NCBI GenBank assembly: GCA_004764695.1
Contig: SMSO01000033.1
Span: 1,131,001 to 1,195,000, forward strand
Direction: 5' to 3'
Length of the DNA: 64,000 bases
From: Schizochytrium sp. TIO01
Lineage: Eukaryota; Sar; Bigyra; Thraustochytrida; Thraustochytriidae
The notes beneath the pieces were generated by a model, which did not search any database, was not told where the DNA came from, and was given only the letters and a program-made list of their open reading frames with translations. Positions 7,605 to 37,166 of the stretch are shown here, one piece after another (positions within the stretch are counted from its first letter, which is position 1; each line of letters opens with the position of its first letter). Both the position numbers and the translations under genes were made by a program.

Positions 7605-9368
7605 CCTCGCTTCGCAACAAGCAAGTCAGCTCGTCGGTCATCGAGAGACCATTCCAGTCGATTCATCCATTGCAGGCAGAAGGCACGCAACTGCGAAAAC
7701 TAGTTCACGGGGTTATTCGAAGGCCCATGTCCTGCTTCCATTCCAGCTGCTAGCCATCATCATCTCAAGAAATAGTCGATACCTAAGCGAATGATTGATG
7801 CCTGAAGAGCTACTGAGGAGGTACGTACGAAGAAAAGGAGAAGAACAGGTTACGCATGGGAATATGAGGTTCTCTGGTTCAGGAACTCGGGAGAGCAAAG
7901 AACCACGAGATCGTAGGGAGCGTGCAGAGGGCTTGGAGAAATAGGACAGAGAACAAGCTCGGAATATTGGGGAAGATACAATGCCTTGGGACAGGTCCGA
8001 GTTGAGAACCATGAGCAGCAAATCGCAAGTGTAGTTTGCACGCACCTGTCAGCCTTGAAAGCAAAAGTACTTCGGGCCGAACATAATATGTTGACGGTCA
8101 GACTTCATCTCAAGGTGCCATGTGTGGGCAGGAAAAATAGCACGGATCAATGTCGAGATTGTGCAATGAACGTGACCTGGTGAATTGACGGGAACCCATC
8201 TACTTACGTTGACTGAGCTACGCTGACATCATCTCTAGAGGTCATGATATTGTAAAGGCTGAAATGGGCTAAATTGTGTCGCTAAAAGCGCGCGCTGGGG
8301 ATTGACGAAGACACTCGAGACTGAGAACTGAAGTGGGACCTTGGAAAATCAAGGAAGGACATTGCCCTATACGATGGCTTAGACCAATAGATAACTATTG
8401 CTTCGCAGCGTTCAGTAAGCTTGTAATGCCATGCAAAAGTTTTGGTGCTTCGAAATCAAAGTCAAGGGGACCGTAGCAGAGAGCAGAAGTCACGATGGAG
8501 ACCCTCAAAACAAACCTGTTTCTCATCTTCCACAGAAGGGGCTAGCACAAACCCCATCGAATAAACTCAGACGAATTTATGACTAGCTCATGGAGGATAT
8601 ACGCAAAGTGAGACCATGGTTCCTTGGGCTAGAAAAGCCAACCTGAGGAACAATTGAATGCTGAGTAAACCACCCAGAAAGGTCTTTCCTTACAAGCCCT
8701 CTCATTAGCAAAGATTTTCATTTGGCTTGATGATATTATATGCAGAATGGGAGACAACCTTCGCTGTATTTGCTTATAATAAATTGTGTAATAGATAGCA
8801 AGTGCTGCCCGGACCAAGAAATGAAGTACTGCTCTCAAGTTTTCAAGCCACTTCAGAATATAAAATTGCTATAATTCCCTTTGAGTATGTACTAATTCCT
8901 CTAAGACTACATAGATTGCCGAGTATGACTTGAAGTATAACTACCCTATTAATAGTAGCTAAGGAAGAATAAGCGAATTATTCTATGTTTATCCACTACC
9001 GCAACAAACGCTCTCGCCACAAACACCAGGGCTTCAGGCATAGCTGTAGAGCCCAAGCGCTTGCCTGCTGTGTTGTGGGTTGCGGCACAAGAAAGCTGAA
9101 GGAACTTCTTCTCCTTGTTGCACGCTGGAGAGGCTCTTCGTGTGGAGGACTTTCCCATTTTGTTATCTTCTTGTCTGCATATTTGGGGGTGAAGGTCGTC
9201 TAAAGCAAAAGGGTTGTTGGTCATTCTGCGCATCGAAACCTTCGTGGCAGCAGTAAACCAAGAAAGCCCCGTAGTCAGCTGACAACTGTTTGAGACAGGC
9301 AATACTTCCGAAGTCTAAGATAAGCAGGTGTACCTGAACGCAGGCAGAATCCACAAGAGCGGGCTACA

Positions 9369-14407: not shown

Positions 14408-17400
14408 TTAGTATTTATCACGCCGCATGCGACCAACCATACGGCTTACGAGACCCCGGCTACCATCGGCAGCACCTTCAACTTTGTGTTTGGAATTTGC
14501 AAGCAAGGAAGCAAAGGATTTGCTGCTATTCCCATGAGCATGGGCGTTGTTGGCATGACTAGGCGACTCCCAATCTTTGAAGTTGGTGTGGTGGTGATAA
14601 GGACGGTCGGCACGGGCCTGGTTTGTGGAACGTTGGTTCTCCTGCTCACGAGTTTCCTCTCGAGTATTCAAACTCCTGGCACTCTTTTTCTCACGAGCAA
14701 GATTTGTCTCCTCAGCAGAACTACGGCGACGTTCTTTAGGAGGATTTGAGGAAGATTTAGCAGAAGTCCATGTATCATCGAAAGATAGTACAGGTCCAGC
14801 AGGGCGAAGACCGCTTGAAGCGGTAGTCTTGTAAGGAGTCGAGGTAGTAGAAGCAGGGGAACTTACAGAATTTTCATCCGAGCTTCCTGTCTTCTGACGT
14901 CTGGCTCTAAGGGGAAGTAGAGGCGAAGGGATGTGCTTGAAGCGGTTCGATTTGGAAGCCGCCGATGTAGGTGTAGTATGGCCATCGTACGCCGGGGCTA
15001 CTTGCTTGGCAGCTTGGAGTTGCTCCCTTAGTTGTTCAAGCTCGGTACGAAGGGTGTCAATCTGACGCTCCGCATCAGCTTCACCAACCTGGGCGTCCTT
15101 GGCAAGCTGAGTCGCAGACTCAAGTTGCTTGATAGTTTTCTCGTGCAGTGCACGCTCCTCTGTAAGTTCTTCCTTGTAACGTTTGATGGCATCAAGTTGA
15201 TCGACAACGATGCGGTCAAGACGCTCGAAAGATTTTCGGTGAGACTCTAAGCTCTTACGGCGTGCTCCAGCCACTGCAGCTGCCTCTGCGGCAGGTTTAC
15301 TATTGTCAATATCGGCGTTAGGACTATCTTTTGCAAGCAAAAGCTCCTTAAGCTGTTCAATTTCCCGACTCTGCAGTTGCAGTTCCGCAGAGTGAAGCTT
15401 GCGCATCCTCTCCATTTCCTCTTCGCATTCATTGATGTTTTGAACTAGTGCCTCGATATCACCCAAGCTGTACACGTTGCTCTTCCCTCCCTCCATCATA
15501 CGATTGCGGAGGTTCTTAAGAAGCATCTCAGATTTGTTATCACTGATTTGCTTGGCAGCATCAACGCGGCTGCGGAAAACAGCTTCCATCTCCTCCAAGC
15601 GCTGTGCCATCTCTTGAGCAACTTCCTCACGAATTTCAGTTTCCATCGTAACGCATTTGAGACGTGCATCTGCTAGCTCATGAATGAGTGCGTGGACAAC
15701 AGGGTGTTCCTCTAAGGAGACATTCATGGCCATGTCATCATCAGTATCATAATATTCGTCGGGATATGGAATGGCCTGGCGCTGCTCTTTGCGAGAGCCA
15801 GTTCGTCTGTGACCTGGCGTGCCATTGTTGTTGTGGTTGCTTGGAGTCATCATTGCGTTTGCGCCACGCTGGTTACCACGAATGCGCCTTCCATCAATAT
15901 CATACTGGGCACCACCGCTTTTGCGACGTGTGAATGCCTTGCGAGCAACCTTTACATTTTTTACAAGTGCGCCGTACTTCAGCGCATGTGCTGTTTCATC
16001 GTAATCTTCTGGCCTGGCGCTGGCATTGACAATCATTGCGACTCCTCCGCAATTAGATCCAACGAAGCAATCCCTGAAAAGGAGGGTCAGCTTACTCTCA
16101 CGAAATGGAACCATTTTCTCCCGCTTGTTTAAACGCTTCTGTTTTTGATTCAAACGCAAGGTGTCGAGGCATCGCATAAGGTTCATCAAGGAACAGTTAA
16201 TGTTGGATGCCTCGCGCTGTCTTGCTCGAGAGGAGTTTGTACGCTTACCTCGCTCGGATCCGGCAAGATCAACAATGTAAAGTCGAGCGGGCTTGCTACT
16301 TCTAGCTGCTCGGCCCTTCTGCTCGACAGTCACGACGAAGACCGAATGGCTACGGCTAGATTGCAAGTTGCATTCTGTTTCATGTGTTTCCCGTGCTTCA
16401 CGACCTCGAATAAGAATGTCAAGACCTTCTGCGCAAGAGTAGATTGGCGTGGACTTGAGACCTTCCACCTCGACACCTTCGTCACGAAGCTTGATCTTCA
16501 GACGCTCCTTTGCAAGATAGTGGGCTTTGGCAGGTGCTTGCAGATCATGTACTTGCTCATTGTAGATTTGCAGATAAGACACCTCGACCTTTGGAAGGTA
16601 TTCCTCTGGATCATCAAAACCGTAAAGTTGCACCTTCTTCTCAAGCTGATCAAAAACTGATTGAAGTGTTCGTGGGATGATACCTGGGTTCTCCTCGCAG
16701 CCCTCCACAGTGTATGTTTTACCTGCATTAGTCACACCATATGCAAAGAGGAGGCCGTCTTTGCCTTCTTCAATAAGTGTTTCTACGAGGGGTAACGTTG
16801 TGGCTTCAAAGAGTTCTGATTGAGTGGTAGGCTTATCGAAGATCCGTGTGAATTTATATTTGCCACCAGTCTCGCGATTCTTGAAGGATTGACTTTCTTC
16901 AGGTGCAACAGTATCTACGGTCATTTCATCTACAACTTGCAGTGTGTCATCCTCAGCACGAGTAAAAATTAACTCGGAGCGTTCATCGGAACGGTGTTCG
17001 TGAGGGCGAAGTCTTAAATAAACCTTGACCATGTCACCATCAACCACATCGTCGGTTTCAGGATACGCCTGATTGAATTTAGGAGGGGGTGTGTACGGGA
17101 GCTCATCGCGATACATGGTGTCAGATTCCGAGCCTGAAGCAGAGCGTGGCTCACGCTCCGGAGTTGCAGGATTGATCATTGCTGCCTTTGAAGCTTGATG
17201 CAAGTTTTCTCCAGTTGACACAGTCTTTGACTTTGTTGGTTTGTTGTTGTTGCTGTTGTTTTCACCGCTGCTACTGCCGTCAGAGCTACTTTTTCGGCTC
17301 CCTGAGCTTGTGGACGCGCTACTGCTGCAGGTCCCTGAGTTGGTGTCAGAGCTGAGGCTGCTTGATGCAGAAGAAGCTGTTCCTGGTCTCTTTCGCGAAG

Positions 17401-17779
17401 TTTGCGGCTTGTTTAATTGCGGACGACCTTGGTGTGCTGATTTTCCAGGGTAGGTTGCGTGTTGCAAATTCCTGCTTCTTGGTGTCTGCGAGCTTGGAAT
17501 ACGATTTCCACTCGAGACAGAACTCGTGTGAAACTTCGACGCGGATTTCGCTCTGGAGATTGACGTGGGCGGCTTGGATGCCGTCGCAGGTCTCACAGCT
17601 GAAGAGCCCTCAACGCCTCCACAGGGCTGTGAAAAAGTGGTCTCGAGATTATCTTTCGAGCTCCCAGCCTGCGGTGCAAAGTCTCTCCCGGTGGCCGCTA
17701 GCGATGGAGGCGCCTCGAGATCCAAGGCTCCTCCGTGCCTGTGCTGCTGCTGCGCGAAACTCCGAGTTTGCTGCGCCAT
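14408..17779 (-). CDS. Kinesin motor protein, kinesin-6 (KIF20/KIF23)-like
   Basis: 1123 residues from the ATG at 17777-17779. The frame is open further upstream but without an ATG. An N-terminal extension of about 250 residues is Ser/Asn/Lys-rich and probably disordered. The motor spans about 251-607: VKVYLRLRP (from 251), P-loop GVTNAGKT (348-355), switch I NLQSSRSHS (about 470), switch II VDLAGSERG (about 500) and FRESKLTLLF. The P-loop form GVTNAGKT and the MIVNASARPEDYDETAHALKYG ending resemble kinesin-6 motors (GxTNSGKT; YDETLxVLKFSA). The rest is coiled coil (about 665-930) and a basic Ser/Arg-rich tail. Kinesin-6 members are plus-end motors of the central spindle and cytokinesis; that role is inferred here. 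The N-terminal position of the motor fits. Subfamily is less certain than family. Confidence 0.88.
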   Translation of the reverse strand: MAQQTRSFAQQQHRHGGALDLEAPPSLAATGRDFAPQAGSSKDNLETTFSQPCGGVEGSSAVRPATASKPPTSISRAKSASKFHTSSVSSGNRIPSSQTPRSRNLQHATYPGKSAHQGRPQLNKPQTSRKRPGTASSASSSLSSDTNSGTCSSSASTSSGSRKSSSDGSSSGENNSNNNKPTKSKTVSTGENLHQASKAAMINPATPEREPRSASGSESDTMYRDELPYTPPPKFNQAYPETDDVVDGDMVKVYLRLRPHEHRSDERSELIFTRAEDDTLQVVDEMTVDTVAPEESQSFKNRETGGKYKFTRIFDKPTTQSELFEATTLPLVETLIEEGKDGLLFAYGVTNAGKTYTVEGCEENPGIIPRTLQSVFDQLEKKVQLYGFDDPEEYLPKVEVSYLQIYNEQVHDLQAPAKAHYLAKERLKIKLRDEGVEVEGLKSTPIYSCAEGLDILIRGREARETHETECNLQSSRSHSVFVVTVEQKGRAARSSKPARLYIVDLAGSERGKRTNSSRARQREASNINCSLMNLMRCLDTLRLNQKQKRLNKREKMVPFRESKLTLLFRDCFVGSNCGGVAMIVNASARPEDYDETAHALKYGALVKNVKVARKAFTRRKSGGAQYDIDGRRIRGNQRGANAMMTPSNHNNNGTPGHRRTGSRKEQRQAIPYPDEYYDTDDDMAMNVSLEEHPVVHALIHELADARLKCVTMETEIREEVAQEMAQRLEEMEAVFRSRVDAAKQISDNKSEMLLKNLRNRMMEGGKSNVYSLGDIEALVQNINECEEEMERMRKLHSAELQLQSREIEQLKELLLAKDSPNADIDNSKPAAEAAAVAGARRKSLESHRKSFERLDRIVVDQLDAIKRYKEELTEERALHEKTIKQLESATQLAKDAQVGEADAERQIDTLRTELEQLREQLQAAKQVAPAYDGHTTPTSAASKSNRFKHIPSPLLPLRARRQKTGSSDENSVSSPASTTSTPYKTTASSGLRPAGPVLSFDDTWTSAKSSSNPPKERRRSSAEETNLAREKKSARSLNTREETREQENQRSTNQARADRPYHHHTNFKDWESPSHANNAHAHGNSSKSFASLLANSKHKVEGAADGSRGLVSRMVGRMRRDKY

Positions 17780-20256
17780 GCCGACACTCGTGGGCCGAGC
17801 AGAATTCTTGTAGGCCCGAAACCGTCTCCAGCGCACACCAACCGAGCGAGAACACTGTCTGTGACTGCTTTCCTTGTCTAAGCGCCGCTTTTGATTGTTG
17901 GTATTGGCCCAGTGGAACTATGGATGCACTATTTGAGGTGTTGGAGTGCTCAATTTGTAAAGTTAACGCTGTAATGAAAACTATGGAGAATGAAAACAAA
18001 AACAAAAACAAAAATACGAAAGGGAAGGGGCGCAGTTGAATTCGCACAGCCAGTGTCGCGAAACGATTTTACACGATGAAACCAAAATCAGCTTTGAGTT
18101 CTTTCCTTGTTGTTGATCGACAAGCCCTCAGGATTGGTTGGGTATTCCGCAATGAGTGAAGAGCGCGAAAGCGGTTTGAGAGATTTTAGGTCGTGACGGA
18201 TAGAAGTCGAACCAGCTTTCAGTTCATGACACAGTCCTTGAATATACTACTCTGCTTCTCTCGCTTCGGCTGCTACCTTGACACTTGCAAGAGTCTAGAA
18301 GATGAGCTAGGCGCCTTTTGATTGGATGTTATTGAATGTTTGCTCAAGATGGTTGAATAATACGCGTAAAAGGTTATATATTTACAGAAGAATTTACGCA
18401 GATGGGTTTTTGTTGAGGATGAGAGTCGGGTCGCTGCAAGCTCGGGAAATGTAGCGGTGCGAGAGTCGGCGCTTTTGACGAGATCGGCGGGGGTTTCTTT
18501 GATTTATTCTTTCTCCTGAGAACGAGCAGAGGTTTCATCTCCTTCGTAGGAACTTAGCTCCATCGTTACATTTTTTTAATTTTTTTTACTACTTCTATTC
18601 CTACAAATAACATCACAGTCACGACCCAAACATGTGAATAAAAGGAATGGCAGGCGAGCTTGTAGATACACCACTGCCTTAATAAACCACCATGTGGGTA
18701 TGCTGCTAGCTCATCTCCTTTGTTTTGCATCAAGCTATTGCTTGCTATTCCTATGTCTCAGTAAACAATCCATTCAATGACTTCTTTCTCTTTACGGGTT
18801 AAAAGAAATTCTTCAACTTGAAAATGAAGGCTCGCTTTACTTACAGCTATCTATATATCTGCAGGCTTTACATTGTTGAAGCGAGGGCTCGTCGCCTCTA
18901 GTGGTTTCCTGAGAACGTCCAGGGGTTTCGTCATTTGTGAGCCTGCAGCTTGTTGGTTACCCATCTTCCTCTCGTACTAAAGGGCTTCATTCTAAAGAAA
19001 GCAAGTGTGGCGCAAACTTTGCAGAGAACCGTTTCTTCTTTGCAGAACCCATTTTGCTGGTTCGAATTTCTTTCTCTAAAAAACAGAATCAGGGCTCCTT
19101 CTTCTCGGAAAGGCGACTTAGGCTCTCGGCCTCCGCTCATTATGGGTCGGATGGAACTTTTGTTACGCAGACAGGACTTTAAGTTTGATGAGAGACTGAT
19201 GATCAGTGAAGGTGAACGCATAGTATTGGACAGCTTGTCTGCTCGGAGTTGGCGCGATGATGCCAATGGGGTAGAGATTTTCTTTATCGATAATGAAAAA
19301 GTGGAATGGCTTCTTTACCTCTGAGTAGGTGGTAGGTACCAACGAGTACCGATTAGTTGTTTTCTGACAATAGTAGTTCTTTCACATCTTCGACATTCGC
19401 ATGTAGTATGTCGTCTCTGTGCTTTTAAAATAAAATGTAATAATGAATTGCTTTGGCTTCAGTTTTCGCTCAAGCTAATAAATCTGATGCGAACTGATGA
19501 TTTTTGCAGTACATGTACTGTTGCGATAATCGTTCTCTAAATTTCATTGTTAACTGAGCTCTCATTGCGCGATTTCAAGGCACTATCGCGTCATATGTCA
19601 TCGTGCATAATCATCAAATGCATGATCGGCCACCACCGTCGATCGCTACTCCGTTGCTTAGTTTATGGCATCAACGAATTGAGTTTGGTGTTACTGCTTT
19701 TCAAAAAAAGGTTATATTTTGATTTTATTCTATTAATATAATATAAGAGGAGATTGTGAAAATAAAAATAAAAAATCACACAAAAAACAGAAAAAACCAC
19801 GAATGTTGCTGACGCTCGTGCTGTGTATCGGTATGTTTCTGAAACAACTAAGTTCTAGTATGCTTGCTGTCCCCTGCAACTCGGTGCTGTTCGAGGTAAC
19901 TGCATGATTCAGTTAACAGCTAATTCCTCTATCCAGACAAGTTTTGGTGCCTATCATGAAACTACCGATAACAAGTGTGGAAATTGCTGTATCCTCATGC
20001 TGAAATTGAATAGGGCGGGAAAATGGCCCCAGGGCAAATAGGTTGCTGAAGCATCAACTAGTACTGAAAGCCAACGAGTTGTACAAGATAATAACCAGAA
20101 AGACATTCACGTTTTTAAATCTTTCTTTTCTTCTTCTTTGTTAAAAAAAGGGGAGAGAAATAAAAAAACACTCTGCGCCGGACAGTAAATATACGAGAGC
20201 ATGCATTTTTCTCAGAAATGTGAACAAGTACGATGACCATCATATCCACCATCATA
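17780..20256. other. Intergenic region, no gene recognised
   Basis: About 2.5 kb between the kinesin 5' end and the VPS39-like 3' end. It should contain the kinesin promoter and the VPS39 3' UTR. Small open frames exist on both strands, but none has a motif. At 18966-18978 the minus strand reads AGTACGAGAGGAA, the sarcin-ricin-loop consensus of large-subunit rRNA, without other rRNA signatures nearby (see findings). Confidence 0.45.
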
Positions 20257-23200
20257 CTATTTGCCAGGTGTTTCAGCTGATCCAAGGCAAGCTTGGTGAA
20301 CCACCGATCGTAAATTTGGGTCCACAGCAAAGGGCTCAGTCAGAATCTTCTTAGCGCAAATACGGCATTGGGTATCTTGTGTAATAGAGAAATTGCGCTT
20401 TTGACGACGGGAAAGCTGATACAAAGTTTTGATGTTCTGTGCTACACAAAGATTCTTTTCCACGCGAAGCTGCGACAATTTCTGCACATTGGCTCGGAAA
20501 ATAACTGCCAAATAACCTTGCAAATCACTGAGCCGCATGTCTGCAGGGAGTTTAGAAGTCACAAGGCCAGGGTCAATGACGCTTCCGTATTTTTCAAGAA
20601 TAGACAGTGACTCTGCTCGATACTTACTGGCAAGTTCTGGCTCGAAATAAAGACACACAAGTTCTAAAAACGGATTGCTAGCCTTTCCTGGTTGCAAATG
20701 TTGGTTTGATGCTAACATCTTCGAGCCTGGGCTTGAGGTACTAGCACCTCGTATTGGACTCGGGGTTCGAGATATGGGTGATGATGATAAGGCGAAGTCT
20801 GCCATAGTCGCTGATTTCAGCCCCTGTTGACGCGGTTCTGGGACATTTAATGTGCTAGCTGCATTGTCTTGCTCCCGCTCCTGTTGTTGCTGTAACTGAA
20901 ACCAAAGCTGCTGGCGAGCATAATGTTTTACGCAGTATGCCTCAGCAGCCTTAGGGTCATCTAAGTCCTTAATTAAAACTGCCAACGCAGTATTGTGCCA
21001 GCCACACTTTGAGTATAATTCAACCCTTTCTGGAAGCATGGCATCGTTTAGGTCATTTTGTTGCTGTTCAAGTTGCCTCGCTATTAAATCAGCTTGAAAT
21101 GTCGTTCTGTGATGTGTTCCGGGCTCTTCCACGCGAAGAGTCAAAGTTTCTGGTCTATCGATGAAATCAAAAAAGTTTTCACGGTTTTCCTCGCGGAGAG
21201 ACGCTGGACATTTCTCAAGAACACGTATGAATTCCTGAGCTGTCTGCAGATCAAAAGCGCGAGCTGATGGGTCCATGGACTCATCTGCTGAAAGCTTTTG
21301 TAAATATGTGAGACAAAGTCTGCTCCGCGGTGATGTGTCATACTTACATAATTGATCAAGAACAGTTTCTGAATCAAGATTACCTTGACTATCTTGAGTT
21401 GGTTCTGTGAAAATTTGCACAGCAGACTCTGGATCGCGTTCAAGAACCCATGGCGCAAATGACCAAACAAGTTGAGGATCTTCGTGATGAGCACGAAGAA
21501 AATTGATGGTTTCAGCAACACCATCTATTCCTGATTCTGCATACTTTCCCTTGCCAATATCAGCCCAGATTTCAAGTGCTTCACGTCGATGAGATGGTGA
21601 GGACCCCAATAAAAGAGCGGCTGCATGATATTGTTCCTTATCCAGGAGCGCGTGTGCACAGGTATCCACCTCAAGTGAATTGGGAGAAGCGCAAAGTTTA
21701 TGTAAGGCCTGAACGTCGCCTTCACTGTGCGGAGGATCAACGAATAACCGAAACAAAGCAAAGTCTACAAACGCAGCAATTTCCGAGTCCGCAATACCTT
21801 TCGATCGCTGGGATTTTAAGTATTCCTTGAAAGTTGTTAGCAATTCATCCTTTGTATTTTCTGTGCGGTTTTCGACCCGGAGCAACATTGGGTACGCATG
21901 AATATCCTCATCGTCCAAATCATCTTGTGAGCTAGAAATGTCGAAATTAGTCCTTCGTAGACGCTTAGGATTATACTTTTCAACGTAGGGAGGTTGAAGA
22001 CCTGGAAATTGAGCAATCAGCTCTCGCAGGTCGAGCTTTGCAAAACCAAATTGTTGAAAAGCTTTTGCGAAACGGCCTCTCCGCAACATTGCAAGCGCTG
22101 CTTCAAGGTGGAAATGCGCAATGAGGTCACTGCGAGTAGAGTGGTCTGGAGAGTTAATAAGGTCGGGAAGGAGAGTGTCGTGGGTTGAAATTTGACGTGC
22201 AAGACGACGAAGTGTTGTCTGTGTATGTGCTCGACTTGATCCTTTATGTGCTTCCTCAATAGGGTTCAGCACTCGTTCAGAGTAAATCCGAAAAGCTCCA
22301 GATACATCATCCATATCAAAGAACTCTTCCATCCGCCGTCTTAACGAAACGGTCCCAAGGTTAAGAACTGCATTCGACGTAAGGAGAAATACTCCACCGC
22401 CCGCAGTGAGGTTTTCTAGGATTGGCTCGGAAGCATCAGTTTCAATATCTTGGCCAGCTGCAGATTGGGTTGCTTGGGCATTCCAAGGAGCAGGCGCGAC
22501 CAATGCAATTGCAGGAGTTTCAAGAACTGAAAATTCAGAAACAAGGCCCTGCGGGTCAGTTGAGTGTACCTGAATTTGGCGGCCATCATCGTGTAGAGAA
22601 ACTGCAAAATCTAAAGTACAGACAGTGCGTAGTGGTGGTGTTGACCAGACAATTGTACTACCACTGGGTTGTCCTGAAGAATCAATAACAATGCCTAATC
22701 CATCTACGATCATTAAAAAACGGCCTTGACTTAGGGCGCTGACATTGGACCCTCGGATGAGATGAGCATAATTAGGTGTCATTGATATTGTACCTGAGAA
22801 CCGCTTAGGTCTACCGGGAGTCCCAGGGCTTGCAGTGAGTATGTTCCCGCTAGAGGGCTCTGCCACTGAGGCCCCCAAATTCCCTACTCCGCCAGGAGAC
22901 GATGTCGCCATTCCACTTGAATTTGTTGCTGCTGCTGCTGCTGTTGCTGCGAAGCCAAATCCAGAGCGCCGCTTCCGTCGTCGATCGTTTGGAAACTCAT
23001 GAACTTTGAGCATTCGTCCAGAAGGGACATCAATTAACATTATTTGGTCCTCAAGAGCTACACAGATCTTGTGAAGAGACCAAGCTGCATCCAACGCAGG
23101 ACTTGGGATGTTAAGCACTTTCCACGGTTCATATTTCTCACCTGCCCATCGAAACAGGTGCGCTTTATGCGATGTAAAGACGCAAATACTAAAGTTTGGT

Positions 23201-23532
23201 ACTGCAGATTCATTCTGCACAAGGCCTAGTACCTCGCCGCGTACGCTTGGCTTAGCATTCGGACGCTGACACAGACGCTGTGCATCGATGCTTTCAACTA
23301 TACCATTGGAGAGTGCTAATAAAAGACCGATTTCGCCGAGAGCCAGCAATTGTACAATAGGTTTTCCGCCTGGAATTGTGTAACTCTGCTGTTGGCCATT
23401 GAAAATAAGGCAGACGCGGCCGTCATCTGTACCTATGTATATTTGATCGTAAAAGCTAGCGAGACACCTGGCTTCCGGCGGTACACCGCCATCTTGAGGT
23501 CCGAGACCTCGTGCTGCGGTAGTGCTTAGCAT
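20257..23532 (-). CDS. VPS39-like (Vam6) HOPS/CORVET-type vacuolar sorting protein
   Basis: 1091 residues from ATG at 23530-23532. The N-terminal third looks like a citron-homology (CNH) beta-propeller: IYIGTDDGRVCLIF, LGEIGLLLALSNGIVESID, then segments ending near AVLNLGTVSLRRRMEEFF. The middle is alpha-helical clathrin-heavy-chain-type repeat. It includes INFLRAHHEDPQLVWSFAPW followed by VLERDPESAVQIFTE, which matches the VPS39/TGFBRAP1 family pattern. The C-terminus has CRICAKKI... VVHQACLG, the short zinc-binding end typical of VPS39 family members. The length exceeds animal VPS39 (about 880) because of Ser-rich insertions. Family members tether endosomes or vacuoles with Rab7 and join VPS11/16/18/33. 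VPS39 is favoured over the related VPS3/TGFBRAP1, but the two are hard to separate by eye. Confidence 0.82.
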   Translation of the reverse strand: MLSTTAARGLGPQDGGVPPEARCLASFYDQIYIGTDDGRVCLIFNGQQQSYTIPGGKPIVQLLALGEIGLLLALSNGIVESIDAQRLCQRPNAKPSVRGEVLGLVQNESAVPNFSICVFTSHKAHLFRWAGEKYEPWKVLNIPSPALDAAWSLHKICVALEDQIMLIDVPSGRMLKVHEFPNDRRRKRRSGFGFAATAAAAATNSSGMATSSPGGVGNLGASVAEPSSGNILTASPGTPGRPKRFSGTISMTPNYAHLIRGSNVSALSQGRFLMIVDGLGIVIDSSGQPSGSTIVWSTPPLRTVCTLDFAVSLHDDGRQIQVHSTDPQGLVSEFSVLETPAIALVAPAPWNAQATQSAAGQDIETDASEPILENLTAGGGVFLLTSNAVLNLGTVSLRRRMEEFFDMDDVSGAFRIYSERVLNPIEEAHKGSSRAHTQTTLRRLARQISTHDTLLPDLINSPDHSTRSDLIAHFHLEAALAMLRRGRFAKAFQQFGFAKLDLRELIAQFPGLQPPYVEKYNPKRLRRTNFDISSSQDDLDDEDIHAYPMLLRVENRTENTKDELLTTFKEYLKSQRSKGIADSEIAAFVDFALFRLFVDPPHSEGDVQALHKLCASPNSLEVDTCAHALLDKEQYHAAALLLGSSPSHRREALEIWADIGKGKYAESGIDGVAETINFLRAHHEDPQLVWSFAPWVLERDPESAVQIFTEPTQDSQGNLDSETVLDQLCKYDTSPRSRLCLTYLQKLSADESMDPSARAFDLQTAQEFIRVLEKCPASLREENRENFFDFIDRPETLTLRVEEPGTHHRTTFQADLIARQLEQQQNDLNDAMLPERVELYSKCGWHNTALAVLIKDLDDPKAAEAYCVKHYARQQLWFQLQQQQEREQDNAASTLNVPEPRQQGLKSATMADFALSSSPISRTPSPIRGASTSSPGSKMLASNQHLQPGKASNPFLELVCLYFEPELASKYRAESLSILEKYGSVIDPGLVTSKLPADMRLSDLQGYLAVIFRANVQKLSQLRVEKNLCVAQNIKTLYQLSRRQKRNFSITQDTQCRICAKKILTEPFAVDPNLRSVVHQACLGSAETPGK

Positions 23533-26414
23533 TTCTTTAGAAGTCGGCTTTCATGCAGTAGAGCTTTGTGGCTTTTTCTCTTCACAGAGCTCGCAATCTG
23601 GGCTTTGAAACGTAGTAGATAGAAGGAGCGAAGCTAGCAAGCTATTGATGATGAGCTGAGCTGACTTGTATCCTTGTTGCTCAAACGTAGACTATGCAGA
23701 AAACAAGATTTTCTGGGTCTCGACAAAGATCCTCGACAGTTATCCTTGTATGCTCGTTGTGCCAGTCTCTAGCATTCGTCTGCAGGATGGAATCACAGGC
23801 GAGAAGTTGTTTGATGAGCAAAGATACCGACTAGGTATGAGCTTTCATGCTATTAGGCCTCATTAGTAATTTATCATAAGGGATTCATTATATAATCTAC
23901 TAGTACTTAGCTATAAACTATCCTGGTACGCTCCAAGATGGATAGAGATAACAAGTCACAGTGACAGTCGAAACAGGTGACTGACATGCCTTTCCTTGGA
24001 GACTGACCAATGAGTACCAACGCAGCAATTATCTATTGCAAGGTATGCTGCTTGTAGTGTCTTGTTGATCTTCATTCTGTAAAATGAAGGGTACTTTTAA
24101 CGAATATGCGCAAAATTTCCATATTCAAACCAAAAGGCGATAAAAGCTCAGATTGAAAAAAACCAATCTCTGCGAATGCTGTCTATTCAGTCACATATGC
24201 AGGGTGGGTTTAAAATCATTTAGTGGGAACCCGTGATAGTGTGGAAAGGAGGTTGCTAAAGATTTATCAAATTTTTAGACCTTGAAGTCATGGGATCAAA
24301 ACACGAAATGGAGATACCTGCGCATCACTATGCTAGATAAATAGATTGGGAAACACCTTGCGAAATATCGAAAGAGCTTGTGCTTGTTAAAGCAAAAACT
24401 GACTTCGCACTAAGAAACTGACTTCGCATCAAGAAACTGTCTAAGTAACCAGTCATATTCCTCCAGAGCATGTTGGCGTCTCCAAACACCTTGCTGGTGA
24501 TTACCTATTACTGTTAAGATTGAGAATATGGCAGTCGCCAATAAGTAAAGATACCTCATTCACGATGAATTCAAAATATAAAGTTAAATTGTGGCATCGA
24601 CCTTGAAGAGCTAAACTTATGTCTTTCAGAAGACATGCACTTAATATCAAGAGTGACAACTCTGTCTGCCATTTTTATTCTTTCGAAGGTCTTGGTTGAT
24701 CTTCTGCAAAATATTCATATATCATTTTTTCAACTAGAATCGATGCTGACTTTACACATAACCTAGCATCTTGTTAAAATTAAACATTGAGATAATTGGC
24801 AGCACCAGAGTGCAGGGACTTATAAAAACTTTGACACAGATTACTTAACTGTTGCAGTACTTCATAATCTAGAAACTATGCCATCCTTTATAGAAATGGT
24901 TAAACTTAAGTTAAAAGAAATACTAAATAACCGTTTTCTACTTGAATGCATTTCACTACTTGTGACACTACCAATTGAATGACGAAGCAGCACATATCCC
25001 TCCTTATTCAAAGAATAGGAGGTCTGGCAATATTGATGTACTTTAAACTTGAATACAGGACCATGTTTTAGCATTAATTTACCAGGTGCATGATAATTTC
25101 TAAATCCCTGAGTATACATTGCGCTGTTAAATATCCTCTTAGCTTTTCAATTGGACTACAGTACAAGATTTGTTGTATGGTACCAGAATCCCGAATGGTT
25201 TTCTGCCCTGACATAGTAGGATGGCTTTAATCATATCGTATCTCGCTTGACAAGTCTAGTTTTTTTGCTGTTGTTTTGAGAATCGGTCAAGTGTATATGT
25301 GCCCATGAGGTCAGGTGAGGGTCAGTAAGCAGTGCGTCGCGTCATTGATCAAAGTCGCGCATGGTGGTTGCCATCAAATGGTACAATGCACACGTATTTG
25401 CTGCGAAACATGCCTACTCTCACAAGTCAAGCTACTTTATGAAAGTTTATCCTTGTTTATTTCAAGTTCGTTGGCCGACGATAAGGGGCCTTCGTCGATT
25501 CCAACGCATTACACTGTTCCAAAGACGAGTGTTCTCGGTGTTCAAGCCAGTAAAACGAACAGGCGAAGTTTCCCAGACTAAGCACCTCTACCTAGCTAGA
25601 GTTCAACCTAAAGTCACATCGTAGGCACAGATTAAATAAACCCCATTTACAATTTTATTTGTGTTTTTCTTTCCTTTTATGCCTATTTTTTTCTGGTTAC
25701 AGACGAAACTTGCAGCAGCAGAAGAAGATTATGATCGCTTGAGCAGAGTGCCGCCTTTTAAAAGCAGACTCTCACGAAGTCCTTTGAGGCTTCAGAAAGA
25801 CACAGTGCATACAGTCAATTTCGGAAAAAGATTGTGCCATGAACTCCTCTGTTCCTACCTAACACTACCTAGGTTGTTCAAGCCCGAGTCTGAGCAGCAC
25901 CCGACAAGAATACCTACTGTATAATAGTTTGTTGAGGTTCAAGAGGGACAAAGTTCGAGGATTCGGCACTCTCACTACTCATAGGTAATACGTTGAGTTC
26001 GCTTAGCTTGGGTAAAAAGCATCGTCATTACTGATGATTCGGGGTATAGGCGGAATTGGCAGTATCAGCAGAATTGAATCTAGTGCACCGGATCCATCGT
26101 AGCGAAGAAGATTCTTTTTAGGAGTGCATCTTCAAAGCCTGGCTGAGTAATAGAAGAACTATTCCTCTGCAGATAGATGTCTATCAATTCGCTCTGGAGC
26201 ATCGAATCTTGAAGTCTGCTGGAGCTTTTCTGACTAGGGTTGCGATCTTTCGTGCCAACCAGGAATCTTTGTCTTAGTTCACCTGCTATGCTTCGCCTCT
26301 GAGTTGATTGCCTCGTCCAGGCCTGCGAGATACTGAGATGCAATTGATGAACCCATCATTGAAGTCGGCGTGTGGTAGTACACTAGGTGTAGCTCATTCC
26401 CTGCGTAGATTTCA

Positions 26415-30751: not shown

Positions 30752-30755
30752 ATAG
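30752..30755. repeat. Target-site duplication ATAG, left copy
   Basis: The four bases next to the left terminal inverted repeat are ATAG, matched exactly by ATAG right after the other end at 35245-35248. Confidence 0.85.
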
Positions 30756-30794
30756 CCCTGGCTATTTTTCGGGACGTATTACGTCCCGAAAAAT
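30756..30794. repeat. Left terminal inverted repeat plus subterminal palindrome
   Basis: The 9-bp terminal repeat (30756-30764) runs into a perfect inverted repeat at 30764-30794, with 15-bp arms around a single central T. This is a likely transposase-binding site. Confidence 0.9.
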
Positions 30795-31267
30795 CGGATA
30801 AACTTTAATTTTCCCGGTAGAGTATTTAAGGACTTATTACGTCCCGAAAAATATGTACCTACTTGAGTCATTGATCAATTCAACAGTCTAGCTCTGTTCG
30901 GGATGAAACTCGTTTAGTTTACCCTCCCCGACCTCACCTGTCCATATGTTATCATGTTCTCATGATTCTCCGATTGATAGTTGAGTTTAGGACCAAACAA
31001 TGACATTCTCAGTGGCGGTTAGGTGGTGGTTAGGTTAACAGGTATTTGACACATGGTCGTTAGGTTCTCCCACGGTACCTGTTCTACCAGACAATTAATA
31101 CTGATAAACATCAATAATATCTTGCGCCAGCATGTAGTGCCAGCAGTACCAACAAAAGTACATCATACCTTACTTCATCGTCCACTTGCTAGTCTACTTG
31201 GGATCTATCAGCACTTCCCTCAGCGAAGAGGTCCATTGGCGCTTGAGTTTAACGTCAGCTGTGTGTC

Positions 31268-34200
31268 ATGTCTCTAGATGACGTCGAGAATGACAAGGAC
31301 TCAATCTACATTTCCTCTGATGAGTCTTCTTCTGATGAAGACGAGAACGATCTCTATGAGTGTTCATCGGCAAGTACTCCTGGCCATGAAAACTGGACCT
31401 TTCAATCTTACTCCACTGAAGGCGCAAAGTACCACAGCAACCTATCTGGGTCTCAACTTGGCATGAACGCAGTCCAACTCAAGTACAATTGCTCAAGCGA
31501 ATTAATGCTCCCCAAGGTTCAACAAGAAAGTTCGGAGATTACTAAAAGGATTCGAAAGGTTCTTCGTGTTGACAATAACTACAAATTTACCAGGCTTGAT
31601 AGTTTCAAGATTTGTTTGCCGCCAGGCTGGGTGATTGCAGTTAAGGAATGGTTGAATAGTCTTAGCTCAAACGCATCTCCGCCATTTTCTATCACGGATC
31701 AAGATTTCCGTGCCTACCTTCTCGTTGAAATTTCTCTGCGAGTTGCAGGAAAGTCGTTCTCGGAGTGTCTTGAGGACCCACCAGGTCATTGGAATCTAGC
31801 CCATACGGTATCCTATTCAAAAGTTCGAAAGGCAATGAGCCTGGACAAGTCCAATCGGGCAACAAAAGGGTCACGCGAGGCTAGAGTATGCTCCTCAAGT
31901 CCGATCATCCATGAAATGGGAGGTGCTGCTCAGCGCCATTGGGTGAAGATGTTCTTTGTCCCTAAAACCACTTGGATCGATCTTGATGACGACAAGCTTC
32001 CCTATGGTTCTCCTCAGTGGGAGAATTTTGGAATTCGTACCATTCCAACGAAAACAAAAAAACAGAAACCCGTGATACATCTTGTGTGCTCTGTGGGTAC
32101 AGGTCTGCTCCTAGTACCACGGTTAGAGACTTCCCACTCACCTGTTCATAAAATTGTAAGCAAGGCAATAGATTTTCTGAATGAGGGGGAGTCAGGAGAA
32201 AGCCCTGATGCGTCTGTGTCTTCAGAGCTTCGTGTATTCATTGATCGTGGTTATCTGGCATTATCGAAACCTCAGGATATGGATCGTGCAACAAACATAA
32301 CTCAAATTCTTCAGTCAAAGGGAGTCAAATTTCTTGGAACTTGTCGCAAGACCTCGTCATTCCCGTTTATAGATGTTGAAGGACCAGTTCCTGCTACGCC
32401 TGTGAGGGGAAGTCAAACTATCATTAACAGGAATGGCCGTCGAAGCACCTACACCGCTCAAAGATACCAGAATGGCGATTTTGTTGCTGCGATGATGATG
32501 CGTCACGGTGCGGGAAAGCATAGAGTTGCACAACTCATCACGAACGACCGTTGTTTGGCTGACCAAGTTTGGAGTTACGAAGTACTTCCTGCTGGAGTAG
32601 ATTGGAACTCACCAGGTGGTGTAAAGCGCGTTCCACATGCTGAGATTGAGATAGAGCCGTGTGACATGAGTACATATAAGATGAAGGCACAAGCTAATCA
32701 TAAAATTAACCTTGTGAACGCCAATATCTTCTCAATGACAATTTCCCAAAGAACACCTGACTGGTTTATGGCTCGGCAATTTAGAATTACAAGCACCGGT
32801 GCTTTTACCTGTATCAACTTTAAAAATGCTCCATTCGTTCATTCGGATGAGCTTATGGCCTTACACCACGATGTGAAATCGTTCGCTTGTCTTGACCCGC
32901 AACGAATTATCTCATTATTCCCCCGTCCTAATAAGCGTTCTTCTTATTCATCTGAAGGAGCTCAGAAGCAATATAAAAGGAAGCGTCAAGGGGAGGGTCT
33001 TATTCTTGAATATACATACTGGATGCAACGTATGAACAAAAATGAGCTTATCCAAAAGTTACTTTCTTTGGATGTAGGTGCAAAGACTGATGGCAAAAAG
33101 ATCGAACTAGCCAAGCGGATCGTAGACATCCTATCAAGAACTATAGATCATGAAACGGTCTCAAACGGAGAACTATCTTCCTTACAGGAAGACATACACC
33201 CTCAGCATGCATCTCAGGAGTCCACTACTCAAGACCTGCTGGAAATGAGTGACAGTAGTGACATTGGGGACAGCTTTCCCTTGCACAATTCTGAAACGAT
33301 TGATGATAACCATACATGCACTTTCGAGGAACGCCAGAAATCATTTCTTAGAACAATCACACCAAGTTGGTTTATGAAGCCTATTCAAAATGGGTTTTCG
33401 AATCATAAAAACCCACTGGCTTTGGGGATTGAAAATGAGGCAGACGTGGCGAAAGATCTTTCCAGATGGGTTAAGAAAGCAAGTTCCAATAAATTCTGTA
33501 TTCTCCAGCTACGCAAATATGGTCTGATTATTAATCGGGAAGTCCAATTTGTAGCAGACTCACCCGACGGTGCAGCTGTTCTTTTGAGGAATACAGAGCT
33601 AGAAGGAAACAATTTTGTTATAGATGATGTATTTGCCTTAGAAATCAAAACAAGTACAAATGCCAAAACTATAGATGAGTTAAAGTCTCGAGTTGCTGGT
33701 CAGAGTGCGTGGCACGAATGCAAATGTGGAACAAGTGAGTTCGAGTCGTTAGTCCCAAATCCGTCGTTTCGAACTCAGTGTATCCATCATGCAGCTACTT
33801 TAGATGTCCCTTACACCCTCCTTATATATGCCACAACTGAGGAAATCATGCAAGGAGTGCTAATCAAAGTCTCATGTGCCCAGCGCCAGTCATGGCGTGA
33901 GTATTTCAAAGCGTTGAGTGATGAATACATGGGCTTTGCTTATGGCAATCAACTTGGTAGGTTTCCTCGTTTTGCACCAGACCAATCACCAGACTGGGGT
34001 TATGCTGTGGATTTACACAGTGCCGAACTCGCTTTGCAGCTTTGGCGGAGGCATAGTGACGACGTGCTGGTCAACGGAACCCCACCGCCTTGCAAACGCC
34101 TACTGCCTTTGACTGTTAGTGTCTGGAATAAGATGATGGGCGGAGTTGATATCACTAGAAAAACTATCAATGGAGCGAGCATTCGTACTTCAAAGCTGAC

Positions 34201-34783
34201 TCCTAATGCTTTGGTTTGTTTAACATTCATTGACTATATTTTATACAACTCGTTTCGAGCGTATCAGCTCCTCTCAATGGAGCATCGGAACCTCACATCG
34301 AAGTGTAAAACAATTACGGAATGGTCAATGCTACGCAAAAATCTGTGCTGCTATAGAGGCTATCTAAGTAGTCTCGCAGAAGAAATTAGGGTTGTCTCAA
34401 TGGAATCCCTTTACCCATTTGACAATACTTGTTCCATGTCTGACATAGAATTCTGCTGGAGAGCAACTGATAACACCATTTCGCCTACTTCTACAGCCTC
34501 GCTAGAATCGCCGCAACAGTATCAATACAGTAAGTCACGACTCCCAGAACTTCTACAAACTCGTTTAGTTGGACAGCATGAATGCGTGGGCAAGTTCAAG
34601 AAGAGGGGAGCCTGCATTATGTGTTGTGTTGATTGCGAACGGGGATCGGCGCCAGACCATCCATATCGTAATCCACGGAAGACCACTCGATGGTGCCAAA
34701 CTTGCAATGCTTACATTTGTAAGCATTGCAATATCAAATTTCATAGCGAGGAGCAAATTACGATTCCTCATTTCCATACATAA
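31268..34783 (+). CDS. piggyBac-like transposase with inserted SAP and YqaJ-type exonuclease domains
   Basis: 1171 residues from ATG 31268. An acidic, Ser-rich N-terminus (residues 1-45) precedes the DDE_Tnp_1_7-like core. Catalytic aspartates are inferred at D238 (WIDLDDDKLPYG), D326 (FIDRGYLALSK, followed by GVKFLGTCRK) and D961 (NKMMGGVDITRK). In piggyBac itself the last two are about 100 residues apart; here they are 635 apart. The extra segment begins near residue 495 with RTPDWFMARQFRITSTGAF, a YqaJ-type opening. It then has a SAP-like helix pair at about 589-625 (NELIQKLLSLDVGAKTDGKK). The nuclease block follows: GIENEADVAKDL (about 720), SPDGAA (about 765), ALEIKTS (E792, K794) and QCIHHAATLD, the lambda-exonuclease/YqaJ PD-(D/E)XK pattern. 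The C-terminus carries a Cys-rich finger with CxxC pairs and His (CIMCCVDC... CQTC... CKHC), usual for piggyBac. Function inferred: cut-and-paste transposition with an accessory nuclease activity. Confidence 0.9.
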   Translation: MSLDDVENDKDSIYISSDESSSDEDENDLYECSSASTPGHENWTFQSYSTEGAKYHSNLSGSQLGMNAVQLKYNCSSELMLPKVQQESSEITKRIRKVLRVDNNYKFTRLDSFKICLPPGWVIAVKEWLNSLSSNASPPFSITDQDFRAYLLVEISLRVAGKSFSECLEDPPGHWNLAHTVSYSKVRKAMSLDKSNRATKGSREARVCSSSPIIHEMGGAAQRHWVKMFFVPKTTWIDLDDDKLPYGSPQWENFGIRTIPTKTKKQKPVIHLVCSVGTGLLLVPRLETSHSPVHKIVSKAIDFLNEGESGESPDASVSSELRVFIDRGYLALSKPQDMDRATNITQILQSKGVKFLGTCRKTSSFPFIDVEGPVPATPVRGSQTIINRNGRRSTYTAQRYQNGDFVAAMMMRHGAGKHRVAQLITNDRCLADQVWSYEVLPAGVDWNSPGGVKRVPHAEIEIEPCDMSTYKMKAQANHKINLVNANIFSMTISQRTPDWFMARQFRITSTGAFTCINFKNAPFVHSDELMALHHDVKSFACLDPQRIISLFPRPNKRSSYSSEGAQKQYKRKRQGEGLILEYTYWMQRMNKNELIQKLLSLDVGAKTDGKKIELAKRIVDILSRTIDHETVSNGELSSLQEDIHPQHASQESTTQDLLEMSDSSDIGDSFPLHNSETIDDNHTCTFEERQKSFLRTITPSWFMKPIQNGFSNHKNPLALGIENEADVAKDLSRWVKKASSNKFCILQLRKYGLIINREVQFVADSPDGAAVLLRNTELEGNNFVIDDVFALEIKTSTNAKTIDELKSRVAGQSAWHECKCGTSEFESLVPNPSFRTQCIHHAATLDVPYTLLIYATTEEIMQGVLIKVSCAQRQSWREYFKALSDEYMGFAYGNQLGRFPRFAPDQSPDWGYAVDLHSAELALQLWRRHSDDVLVNGTPPPCKRLLPLTVSVWNKMMGGVDITRKTINGASIRTSKLTPNALVCLTFIDYILYNSFRAYQLLSMEHRNLTSKCKTITEWSMLRKNLCCYRGYLSSLAEEIRVVSMESLYPFDNTCSMSDIEFCWRATDNTISPTSTASLESPQQYQYSKSRLPELLQTRLVGQHECVGKFKKRGACIMCCVDCERGSAPDHPYRNPRKTTRWCQTCNAYICKHCNIKFHSEEQITIPHFHT
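34702..34731. repeat. Perfect hairpin inside the zinc-finger coding region
   Basis: Two exact 13-base arms (34702-34714 and 34719-34731, TTGCAATGCTTAC and its complement) flank ATTT. They lie in codons for the C-terminal CxxC pairs. Confidence 0.9.
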
Positions 34784-34976
34784 AAATTATCCACACAAAA
34801 AATTAATATTACATTTAGCTTATATAAAATCTTCATTTATCGCGAAATCTTCATCTTTAGATGTTTCTCCGACTTGAGCAACGCAAAAATAAACTACTAT
34901 TGTTTATATTAACTAAACTATTAAACTAACCAAAATACCCAAACTCTTATACGTTTTCGCTAATGCAAAGTTCAGT

Positions 34977-35031
34977 TTTTCAGGACGTATTACGTCCTGA
35001 AAATCTAAAGGCCTATTTGCCCTATTAGGCC
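34977..35031. repeat. Right subterminal palindromes of the transposon
   Basis: A 13+1+13 palindrome (34977-35003) carries the same ACGTATTACGT core as the left end, with CAGG/CCTG in place of CGGG/CCCG. A second, shorter inverted repeat (GGCCTA 35010-35015, TAGGCC 35026-35031) follows. Confidence 0.85.
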
Positions 35032-35235
35032 GTTTTATCGAGGTTGTGAGCCAATTTTTGGACGAGTAGCGTGAGCTCAATACGCTTGCTTCTGCAAAGA
35101 AATCGTGCTCAGTTTAGGGAAACAGTTGTTTCAACATGATCATACAATCAAATTTACGATTTTAGATCTTTACAGGGTTTTCTGGCGATTTTAGTCAAAA
35201 ATATTTTGCGGACATAATTCGGGACATTTTGAATT

Positions 35236-35244
35236 TAGCCAGGG
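35236..35244. repeat. Right terminal inverted repeat
   Basis: TAGCCAGGG is the exact complement of the left end CCCTGGCTA. A GGGACA element lies about ten bases inside (35221-35226). Confidence 0.88.
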
Positions 35245-35248
35245 ATAG
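35245..35248. repeat. Target-site duplication ATAG, right copy
   Basis: Matches the left copy at 30752-30755. Confidence 0.85.
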
Positions 35249-35771: not shown

Positions 35772-37166
35772 ATGGCACCCAATCATGCAAGCTCAGGCCC
35801 TTCGGCAGGTGCCCAGGTGATCACAGGTCCTCGAGTTGAAGAGCATCTGGAGAATGTTCGTCCTCGAGCACGAATTCTGATTATTTCACCAGTTTTCCCA
35901 CCTCAAGTAGCAGTGGGTGGAGGTGTGGCAGTGACGGTAGGTGCCTTGACAGATAAGCTCATTCACCGCGGATGTGTTGTCAAGGTTCTATCTCCAAGGC
36001 TCTTCAATGTAGACTTCGGCACATCTAGTCTGTACAAGTCCTTTCCGGTCCAGTTCCCAACGGTGTTCAACCTGCGACTGTTCTACCGCGAGATCAAGGC
36101 CGCAGATGTCATCGTGTGTCCTGATAACACTGTCATGCCATTCCTCCTCTACTTTAGCCACTTACATGGCACCCCTCTCGTATTTAACCTGCACACTAAT
36201 GTGCGCAAGCTCTTAGAGATGACTGGACCCTTTGGTCGCTACGTGTCAGCCCCAATCTGTGATGGTTTCATCCGATCCTGCTCCAATATGACTGCTCGCA
36301 CATTTACAACCTCTCCAAGCTACCGGGATGTGCTGCAAAAGCGTGGATACCGTGTAGACGCTGTGTTTTCCCCGCGTATTAAGCTGGCGATTTTTGAGGT
36401 TGAAGACTCCCAACGCGAAATTGACGAGGCTCGCAAGTTCCTTAGCAAGGGTAACACCAATATGACCTTGCTCATCTACGTCGGTCGCTTCTCGCATGAG
36501 AAGCGCATCGAGCTTCTGGCAAAGGCTAAGCCGGAGGAATGCGTTCTCGCTATCGTTGGTGATGGCCCTGGTGAGGCTGGTGATGATGTGGAGCGTCTTC
36601 ACGACCCCGCAAACCATGTTTACGTCTTCCGCGGTATGCAAGGACAAGCGCGCCTGCGTGTATTTTACAAGGCCTCTGACTTCCTCGTGTCAGCAAGCAA
36701 CTTTGAGACGCTTGGTATGACTGTGGCTGAAGCAAACCTTTGTGACACACCGGCGATCTGCGAACGTGCTACCGGCTTTGATACTCAAATTGTGCATGGT
36801 GAGAACGGCTTTCTCATCCACTTTGACGATTCCAAGCAGGCCAAGGCTGATATTCGCTATGCTATGAAACACAAACCTACTCGTAAAATGATTCGTGCCC
36901 TTATTTCTGGTGACCAGCGATGGGACAGCGACCTTCCGAATCTCGAGGATCTTGTGCTTGATGTAGTTGATGTTGGCGATGATAAATCTCGCTGGGGCTC
37001 CGGTCCAATCTCTCTCTGGCTGATGACCCCCGCCATTATCATCTTCTACATCATGTTCTGGATTGTAGGCTTTCCTTTCAACCAGGTTACTAACTTTGCT
37101 GACCGTAAGAACATTGGTCCGGCCGTGTTTAACTCCAAGCGTCTAGCACCAAAGGCATCCTGCTGA
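35772..37166 (+). CDS. GT4-family glycosyltransferase, SQD2-like, with C-terminal membrane segment
   Basis: 464 residues from ATG 35772. The N-terminal GT-B half shows ILIISPVFPPQVAVGGGVAV (about 34-53), the glycine-rich acceptor-side loop of GT4 enzymes. The C-terminal half starts LLIYVGRFSHEKRIELL (about 233) and has VGDGPGEAGD, FRGMQGQ and the E-X7-E motif FETLGMTVAEA (E312, E320), which binds the donor sugar nucleotide. Overall order resembles SQD2 (sulfoquinovosyltransferase) and related lipid glycosyltransferases. A hydrophobic stretch at about 416-436 (WLMTPAIIIFYIMFWIVGF) near the C-terminus would anchor the enzyme, with the catalytic part probably cytosolic. The acceptor is not known; glycolipid synthesis is the best guess. 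Family certain, substrate not. Confidence 0.83.
   Translation: MAPNHASSGPSAGAQVITGPRVEEHLENVRPRARILIISPVFPPQVAVGGGVAVTVGALTDKLIHRGCVVKVLSPRLFNVDFGTSSLYKSFPVQFPTVFNLRLFYREIKAADVIVCPDNTVMPFLLYFSHLHGTPLVFNLHTNVRKLLEMTGPFGRYVSAPICDGFIRSCSNMTARTFTTSPSYRDVLQKRGYRVDAVFSPRIKLAIFEVEDSQREIDEARKFLSKGNTNMTLLIYVGRFSHEKRIELLAKAKPEECVLAIVGDGPGEAGDDVERLHDPANHVYVFRGMQGQARLRVFYKASDFLVSASNFETLGMTVAEANLCDTPAICERATGFDTQIVHGENGFLIHFDDSKQAKADIRYAMKHKPTRKMIRALISGDQRWDSDLPNLEDLVLDVVDVGDDKSRWGSGPISLWLMTPAIIIFYIMFWIVGFPFNQVTNFADRKNIGPAVFNSKRLAPKASC

Follow-up and report, generated by a model that had tools for sequence, protein, structure and literature searches.

A recently mobile piggyBac-type transposon with a putative YqaJ/lambda-exonuclease-type domain nested in its transposase core

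The window analysed here is a stretch of 64,000 nucleotides from Schizochytrium sp. TIO01 with a G+C content of 34-50% (2-kb steps), in which Pfam recognises host genes for an AAA_11/AAA_12 helicase (9324-13739, + strand), a kinesin (14408-17917, - strand), a Vps39-like protein (20257-23550, - strand) and a GT4 glycosyltransferase (35772-37166, + strand). It also holds a transposon in which a single ORF of at least 150 aa is found; the features of this element and of its protein (P0001, the window protein) are as follows.

30752-30755, left copy of the target site duplication ATAG (second copy at 35245-35248)
30756-35244, + strand, whole transposon of 4489 bp with ends CCCTGGCTA...TAGCCAGGG, delimited by comparison of 7 complete copies
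30762-30796, left subterminal palindrome CTATTTTTCGGGACGTATTACGTCCCGAAAAATCG from the palindrome listing, bp 7-41 of the element
30825-30853, imperfect further copy of the repeat unit on the left side, around bp 70-98, not itself listed as a palindrome
31268-34783, + strand, transposase-nuclease ORF of 1171 aa, uninterrupted and with no intron needed (ORF list and translation)
31913-32599, + strand, transposase core part 1, residues ~216-444, with D240 (31985-31987) and D326 (32243-32245), placed by motif and not significant by profile
32600-34057, + strand, insertion between the second and third catalytic Asp (D2 and D3), residues ~445-930, borders approximate (comparison by eye with piggyBac 268-488 and piggyBat, and hhalign)
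32732-32803, + strand, N-terminal YqaJ motif QRTPDWFMARQFRITST with W499 and R503, a separate hhalign segment (E 0.022, probability 2%)
33020-33127, + strand, weak SAP-like helix pair, residues 585-620 (Pfam SAP, E 0.038)
33323-33952, + strand, nuclease core of the YqaJ/lambda-exonuclease type, residues 686-895, with E724, D767, E792, K794 and Q837 (profiles and motif positions)
34058-34297, + strand, transposase core part 2, residues 931-1010, with GGVD961 (hhalign to piggyBac/piggyBat)
34595-34762, + strand, C-terminal cysteine-rich domain, residues 1110-1165 (invariant Cys/His, weak Pfam finger matches)
34974-35006, subterminal palindrome AGTTTTTCAGGACGTATTACGTCCTGAAAATCT of the right end, 239-271 bp in from the tip
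35245-35248, right copy of the target site duplication ATAG, pairing with 30752-30755

The element has moved recently, as seen from seven base-identical copies at different sites with their own target site duplications and from one exact empty site. A protein search of the source genome (64.06 Mb, 37 contigs), in which locus counts are lower bounds, returned at least 7 loci that match the window protein at 100% over its full length, and 7/7 complete copies are identical in every base across 4489 bp. The flanking DNA differs among them and each has its own 4-bp duplication (ATAT, TTAT, TTAA, CTAA, TTAT, ATAG for the window copy, and TTAG). That the surroundings differ in all seven cases and that a matching duplication accompanies each copy rules out an assembly duplication in place of transposition. 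The joined flanks of the copy on contig C17 match contig C30 over the full 300 bases at 99%, with a single TTAT and an exact junction, and over about 380 bases the two places show 4 mismatches plus a gap of 4 bases within a short repeat, off the junction. Of the C17 and window copies, the only ones tried, the window copy gave no empty site in the assembly with its joined flanks. The 39-kb contig C17 is likely an alternative haplotype (or paralogue) of this place at the end of C30, so that one of the two would carry the insertion and the other lack it, and the C30 site may be an allele that never carried the element, in which case it is uninformative on repair after excision. An eighth copy (L019) has 97.5% DNA identity, a frame broken near residue 1040 and damaged ends, and in a degraded copy (L018) the match jumps from residue 357 to residue 985, an internal deletion of the insert and D3.

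A blind scan for inverted tips beside equal 4-bp duplications around paralogous genes revealed a second mobile family (L009 and L010), with tips CCCTGGATA and the duplications CTAA and CTAG. Both families have 4-bp duplications and short terminal inverted repeats that start with CCC (CCCTGGCTA in family 1, CCCTGGATA in family 2), and the centre of the duplication is TA in 9/9 insertions of the two families. TTAA is found in 1/9, and the strict TTAA duplication of the piggyBac superfamily is thus characteristic of neither mobile family. For the canonical piggyBac enzyme TA is the minimum and TTAA the optimum target, and its relatives in ciliates make cuts with 4-base 5' overhangs (PMC3731211, in part). 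The left palindromes of the two families are near-perfect and lie at the same place (bp 7-41 versus bp 11-35), with unrelated sequence; in family 2 another lies at bp 75-97, and its right end has only a short one. Palindromes of piggyBac itself are asymmetrically placed and bound by the C-terminal domains (PMC11707139, in part). A further near-perfect palindrome of 30 bp lies at 34702-34731 of the window, inside the part that codes for the zinc finger.

The original prediction read the protein as a piggyBac-type transposase with a split D-D-D core, and D326 and D961 are indeed where it placed them, 635 residues apart. By profile comparison (hhalign), the piggyBac assignment held for the D3 segment, whereas the D1-D2 half was assigned by its motifs, no tool confirming it as RNase H. 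The D3 segment matches two piggyBac profiles at E 5.7e-4 and 1.5e-3, with 0/150 shuffles as high in each case, and, of 74 windows taken along the protein, it is the one that matches best. Against the same two profiles the D1-D2 segment gives no significant match (25/150 and 18/150 shuffles as high, or 62/150 and 11/150 when typed fragments were added to the profiles). Its first motif, D240-x-x-x-L-P-Y, resembles the first-Asp motif D-E-x-x-V-P-W of piggyBat (also piggyBac). The best local match of a two-sequence profile of the piggyBac N-part falls just after D326, the expected place, with a chance-level score, and that of a five-sequence profile falls elsewhere, in the nuclease. None of the 5 members of the protein family matches PF13843 (DDE_Tnp_1_7) at E up to 1. 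The window protein, whole or in pieces, gave neither YqaJ nor piggyBac in Pfam, no PDB match and nothing useful in PHROGs, and a PDB profile search with alignment A1 gave only three ribosomal chance matches. The C-terminal Cys/His pattern is invariant in the 5 members; the closest Pfam entries for this finger are zf-Tnp_2 in L012 (E 9.1e-4) and B-box types in L011 (E 8.9e-4) and the window protein (E 0.0087), all below their cut-offs.

Like piggyBac and piggyBat, the element has CCCT tips (here CCCTGG), 4-bp duplications that include TTAA, a D-D-D triad with GGVD at the third Asp, a C-terminal zinc-binding domain and near-end palindromes that are asymmetrically placed. It differs in its nTAn duplications, in the 635 residues between D2 and D3 where piggyBac has about 100, in the nuclease within the core, in having no PF13843 match and in its ORF of 1171 aa, compared to 500-725 aa in beetle piggyBac elements, among which CCCT is the commonest tip (PMC12732532, in part). 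Taken together, the tips, the nTAn targets, the near-end palindromes, the D...D...D pattern and the C-terminal zinc finger, along with the D3 match, point to an element of the piggyBac type. The N-half that is not significant against piggyBac, the nTAn duplications with TTAA in only 1/9 and the absence of PF13843 matches from all members would also fit another TA-targeting DDE group with 4-bp duplications, such as Kolobok. We consider such an origin quite improbable, given the D3 match to piggyBac, the zf-Tnp_2 similarity in L012 and the CCC...GGG termini, with the commonest beetle piggyBac tip, where Kolobok has 5'-RR...YY-3' (PMC9587614, PMC12732532, both in part). Kolobok itself was rejected on the published description of its termini (PMC9587614, in part).

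A domain of the YqaJ/lambda-exonuclease type lies between D2 and D3 in this one protein of a mobile element, in agreement with what had been predicted from its motifs: RTPDWFMAR from residue 495, SPDG with D767, LEIK with E792 and K794, and QCIHH from Q837 are all present. A profile of the insert from four paralogues was compared by hhalign with a profile of 14 phage YqaJ-family proteins and the host's own YqaJ, and residues 685-915 matched with E 1.7e-5 (probability 78%), compared to E 4.8e-5 (68%) when the insert was taken as a whole. The W...R...T motif came up as a second, separate segment in the right order, individually weak at E 0.022 and probability 2%. The observed match scored 40.4, the reversed profile 14.0, and 300 column shuffles averaged 13.4 (s.d. 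2.5) and peaked at 27.3; a chance motif is ruled out for the nuclease, since 0/300 shuffles reach the observed score. Single whole proteins score at or near chance against YqaJ, the best being the window protein (25.0) and L009 (25.3), on the N-terminal motif. In Pfam, YqaJ was the sole match of the L009 nuclease piece at E up to 10 (E 0.013, 16.3 bits versus a cut-off of 22), and the nuclease pieces of the window protein and L009 as a whole had no match; the L009 piece had no match in the PDB and one chance match in phages. The order of motifs (W..R..T(A/S), G...E, SPDG, (L)EIK, Q, and a C-terminal strand and helix) is shared with lambda exonuclease, YqaJ and LHK exonuclease. Those are free-standing phage enzymes, whereas the domain described here sits within a transposase and is split by a linker of some 150 residues. 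We take R503, E724, D767, E792, K794 and Q837 to be the lambda-exonuclease catalytic set, in which R503 is presumably the arginine that binds the 5' phosphate.

Structure prediction had been suggested as a check that could refute the nested fold; it was run and was not decisive, both models being of low confidence. AlphaFold gave residues 690-905 a mean pLDDT of 40 without homologues, and the fold search with this model returned noise, with no nuclease of the PD-(D/E)XK fold in the best 50 of 153 matches. With 20 phage YqaJ rows added, the mean pLDDT was 43.7 and lambda exonuclease chains ranked 1, 2, 4 and 5 in the fold search, at E 0.10-0.28, which is not significant. Human EXO5 ranked 3 and a Cas4-family nuclease 7, all these nucleases lying at E 0.10-0.32 and interspersed with unrelated chains of comparable E. 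The homologue rows bias this second model, and the alignment used for it (A3) misplaces the Q helix; alignments A2 and A4 were left unused for models because the Q helix is misplaced in them. The structure results are compatible with a fold of the lambda-exonuclease type and agree with it without deciding the matter.

The SAP motif of the original prediction fared less well. Pfam SAP matches the window protein marginally (E 0.038, 16 residues), ranks below a phage coat-protein match (E 0.018) and has no match in L009, L011 and L012, the three paralogues scanned; we do not build on it. The linker (residues 531-685) is the least conserved part of the protein, with 26% identity to L009.

The window protein and L009 share about 40% identity overall, with 47% in the nuclease and 47% and 58% in the two core parts. 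This distribution, set against the 26% of the linker, speaks against the idea that the insert is a parasite within a parasite, for example an in-frame intron or an intein, which would be taken out ahead of any transposase activity. Such an insert would account for a large interruption of a conserved core and for two genes of the genome whose full-length PF13843 match fits within 1200 bases and lacks it. However, the insert is in frame in the window protein, L009, L011, L012 and L013 (with the linker shortened in L013), and we regard its removal as very improbable. The two genes just mentioned are among 3 other genes that match PF13843, 2/3 of which match the whole of this profile within 1200 bases and hence have no such insert; these genes (L045, L046 and L047) score above the Pfam piggyBac cut-off, and the D-D-D triad looks incomplete by eye in at least L045 and L046.

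All six active-site positions are kept in both the window protein and L009, and the L010 pieces have the same motifs as L009 by eye. Three further paralogues each lack the full set: L011 is without R503, E792 and K794, L012 without R503, E724 (Asp there), E792 and K794, and L013 without E724, D767, K794 and Q837. For these three, the blind terminal-repeat scan found only short chance pairs and no transposon ends, so that loss of the set goes with the absence of recognisable ends (2 families versus 3 genes). All three have long open frames, and no second intact copy of any of them is among the genome matches listed. L012 keeps all three Asp of the triad, L011 is without the first and third and L013 without the second and third. 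With D-D-D kept and degenerate nuclease positions, L012 suggests that the transposase and nuclease activities can separate. L012 (G000:C30:1537627-1541517), a 1296-aa frame with D-D-D, a degenerate nuclease and no ends found, is possibly a domesticated paralogue, and domestication is likewise possible for L011 and L013. Between the window protein and a 98% copy there are 2 synonymous and 4 non-synonymous differences in the nuclease (15 and 28 across 1042 codons), numbers too small to reveal selection acting on this domain.

The insert persists in three paralogues although their nuclease positions are broken, which could mean that the domain is mainly structural, holding target or donor DNA like the insertion domains of Hermes or the P element, with catalysis dispensable; the insertion domain of the P element is GTP-binding and contacts DNA (PMC7776569, in part). 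We think this unlikely, as both families that have moved keep all six positions, while the three paralogues have no detectable ends and two of them have also lost residues of the triad.

As a whole, the evidence is best explained, in our judgment and with moderate confidence, by a recently mobile, autonomous piggyBac-type transposon that encodes transposase and nuclease in one protein, with the nested nuclease proposed to resect the donor ends. The transposase core would cut at nTAn with a 4-nt stagger, and the C-terminal zinc finger would bind the subterminal palindromes. The PD-(D/E)XK nuclease would sit in the insertion-domain interval of the DDE fold, ahead of the third Asp, and, held by the cut, it could resect the donor flank at the break by degrading its 5' strands, for which the lambda-type 5'-phosphate arginine is kept. 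A resected flank would favour repair from the sister chromatid, by which the donor copy would be restored. The left and right overhangs derive from the same duplicated 4 bp and can anneal whatever their sequence, so nTAn alone does not require a trimming nuclease, and the likeliest benefit of the nuclease is then that it resects the donor break and so promotes a repair that restores the copy. The function of the domain is probably 5'-end resection. A bolder version, in which both nucleases work, one lying inside the catalytic domain of the other, and in which self-excision followed at once by flank resection would steer the host to repair from the sister chromatid and turn cut-and-paste into a mode that gains copies, is one that we can offer only tentatively.

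TnsA of Tn7 is a PD-(D/E)XK partner of a DDE transposase, and the nested nuclease might, in the manner of TnsA, cut the transposon end on its non-transferred (5') strand and so replace or help the hairpin step of piggyBac. The PD-(D/E)XK residues are intact in both mobile families, but the lambda-type R503 and the N-terminal W...R...T(A/S) motif are what we take to be exonuclease features, and to our knowledge piggyBac needs no second nuclease; the role is in our opinion an unlikely one. The position ahead of D3 speaks for it, being near the transposon tip by analogy with piggyBat, in which a hairpin directly after the insertion domain contacts the tip (PMC11707139, in part).

Insertion domains of RNase H transposases lie between beta5 and alpha4 (PMC7776569, in part), and the nuclease, judged by sequence, would occupy the same fold position as these known insertion domains. 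Part of the literature was searched in this respect, and no transposase with a nuclease at the insertion-domain position was found described there. P elements make target site duplications of 8 bp. Their transposase also has an enzymatic-type domain at this place of the RNase H fold, which is GTP-binding and not a nuclease (PMC7776569, in part). KolobokP is likewise a DDD/E transposon with an extra nuclease, which is of a different kind (His-Me finger) and part of a composite-like element structure (PMC9587614, in part). ISL2EU elements (PHIS superfamily) are, like the window element, cut-and-paste DNA transposons that encode a YqaJ exonuclease domain, but in autonomous candidates this is mostly a separate ORF beside a transposase with DDE, HTH and THAP, and the duplications are AT, of 2 bp (PMC4482050, in part). 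The window element has 4-bp duplications and one ORF of at least 150 aa, and neither its protein nor the family members match THAP in Pfam at E up to 1.

Literature searches, with Repbase and most subscription papers outside their scope, found no piggyBac-YqaJ fusion, as judged by titles and the openings of abstracts, and no SAP-YqaJ combination, and only unrelated work for piggyBac with an exonuclease domain and for Aurantiochytrium with piggyBac. Pattern-based scans found no homologues of the whole protein in viral contigs or prokaryotic genomes, the same type of scan in viral contigs also finding none for the host's stand-alone YqaJ or for piggyBac. A nuclease nested in a piggyBac-type core appears to be new in this comparison, which covered that part of the literature, viral contigs and prokaryotic genomes.

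If the nuclease is active, excision and end resection would be coupled in one polypeptide. Such an element would test how DNA transposons gain copies and would be a starting point for transposases that target nTAn in genome engineering. The architecture could also connect the separate YqaJ ORF of ISL2EU with a location beside the active site of a transposase. The host genome has a stand-alone YqaJ gene (L048, G000:C36:4088765-4089157, - strand) of 407 aa from the first ATG, with E 4.4e-22 to PF09588, and this gene could belong to an ISL2EU-type element.
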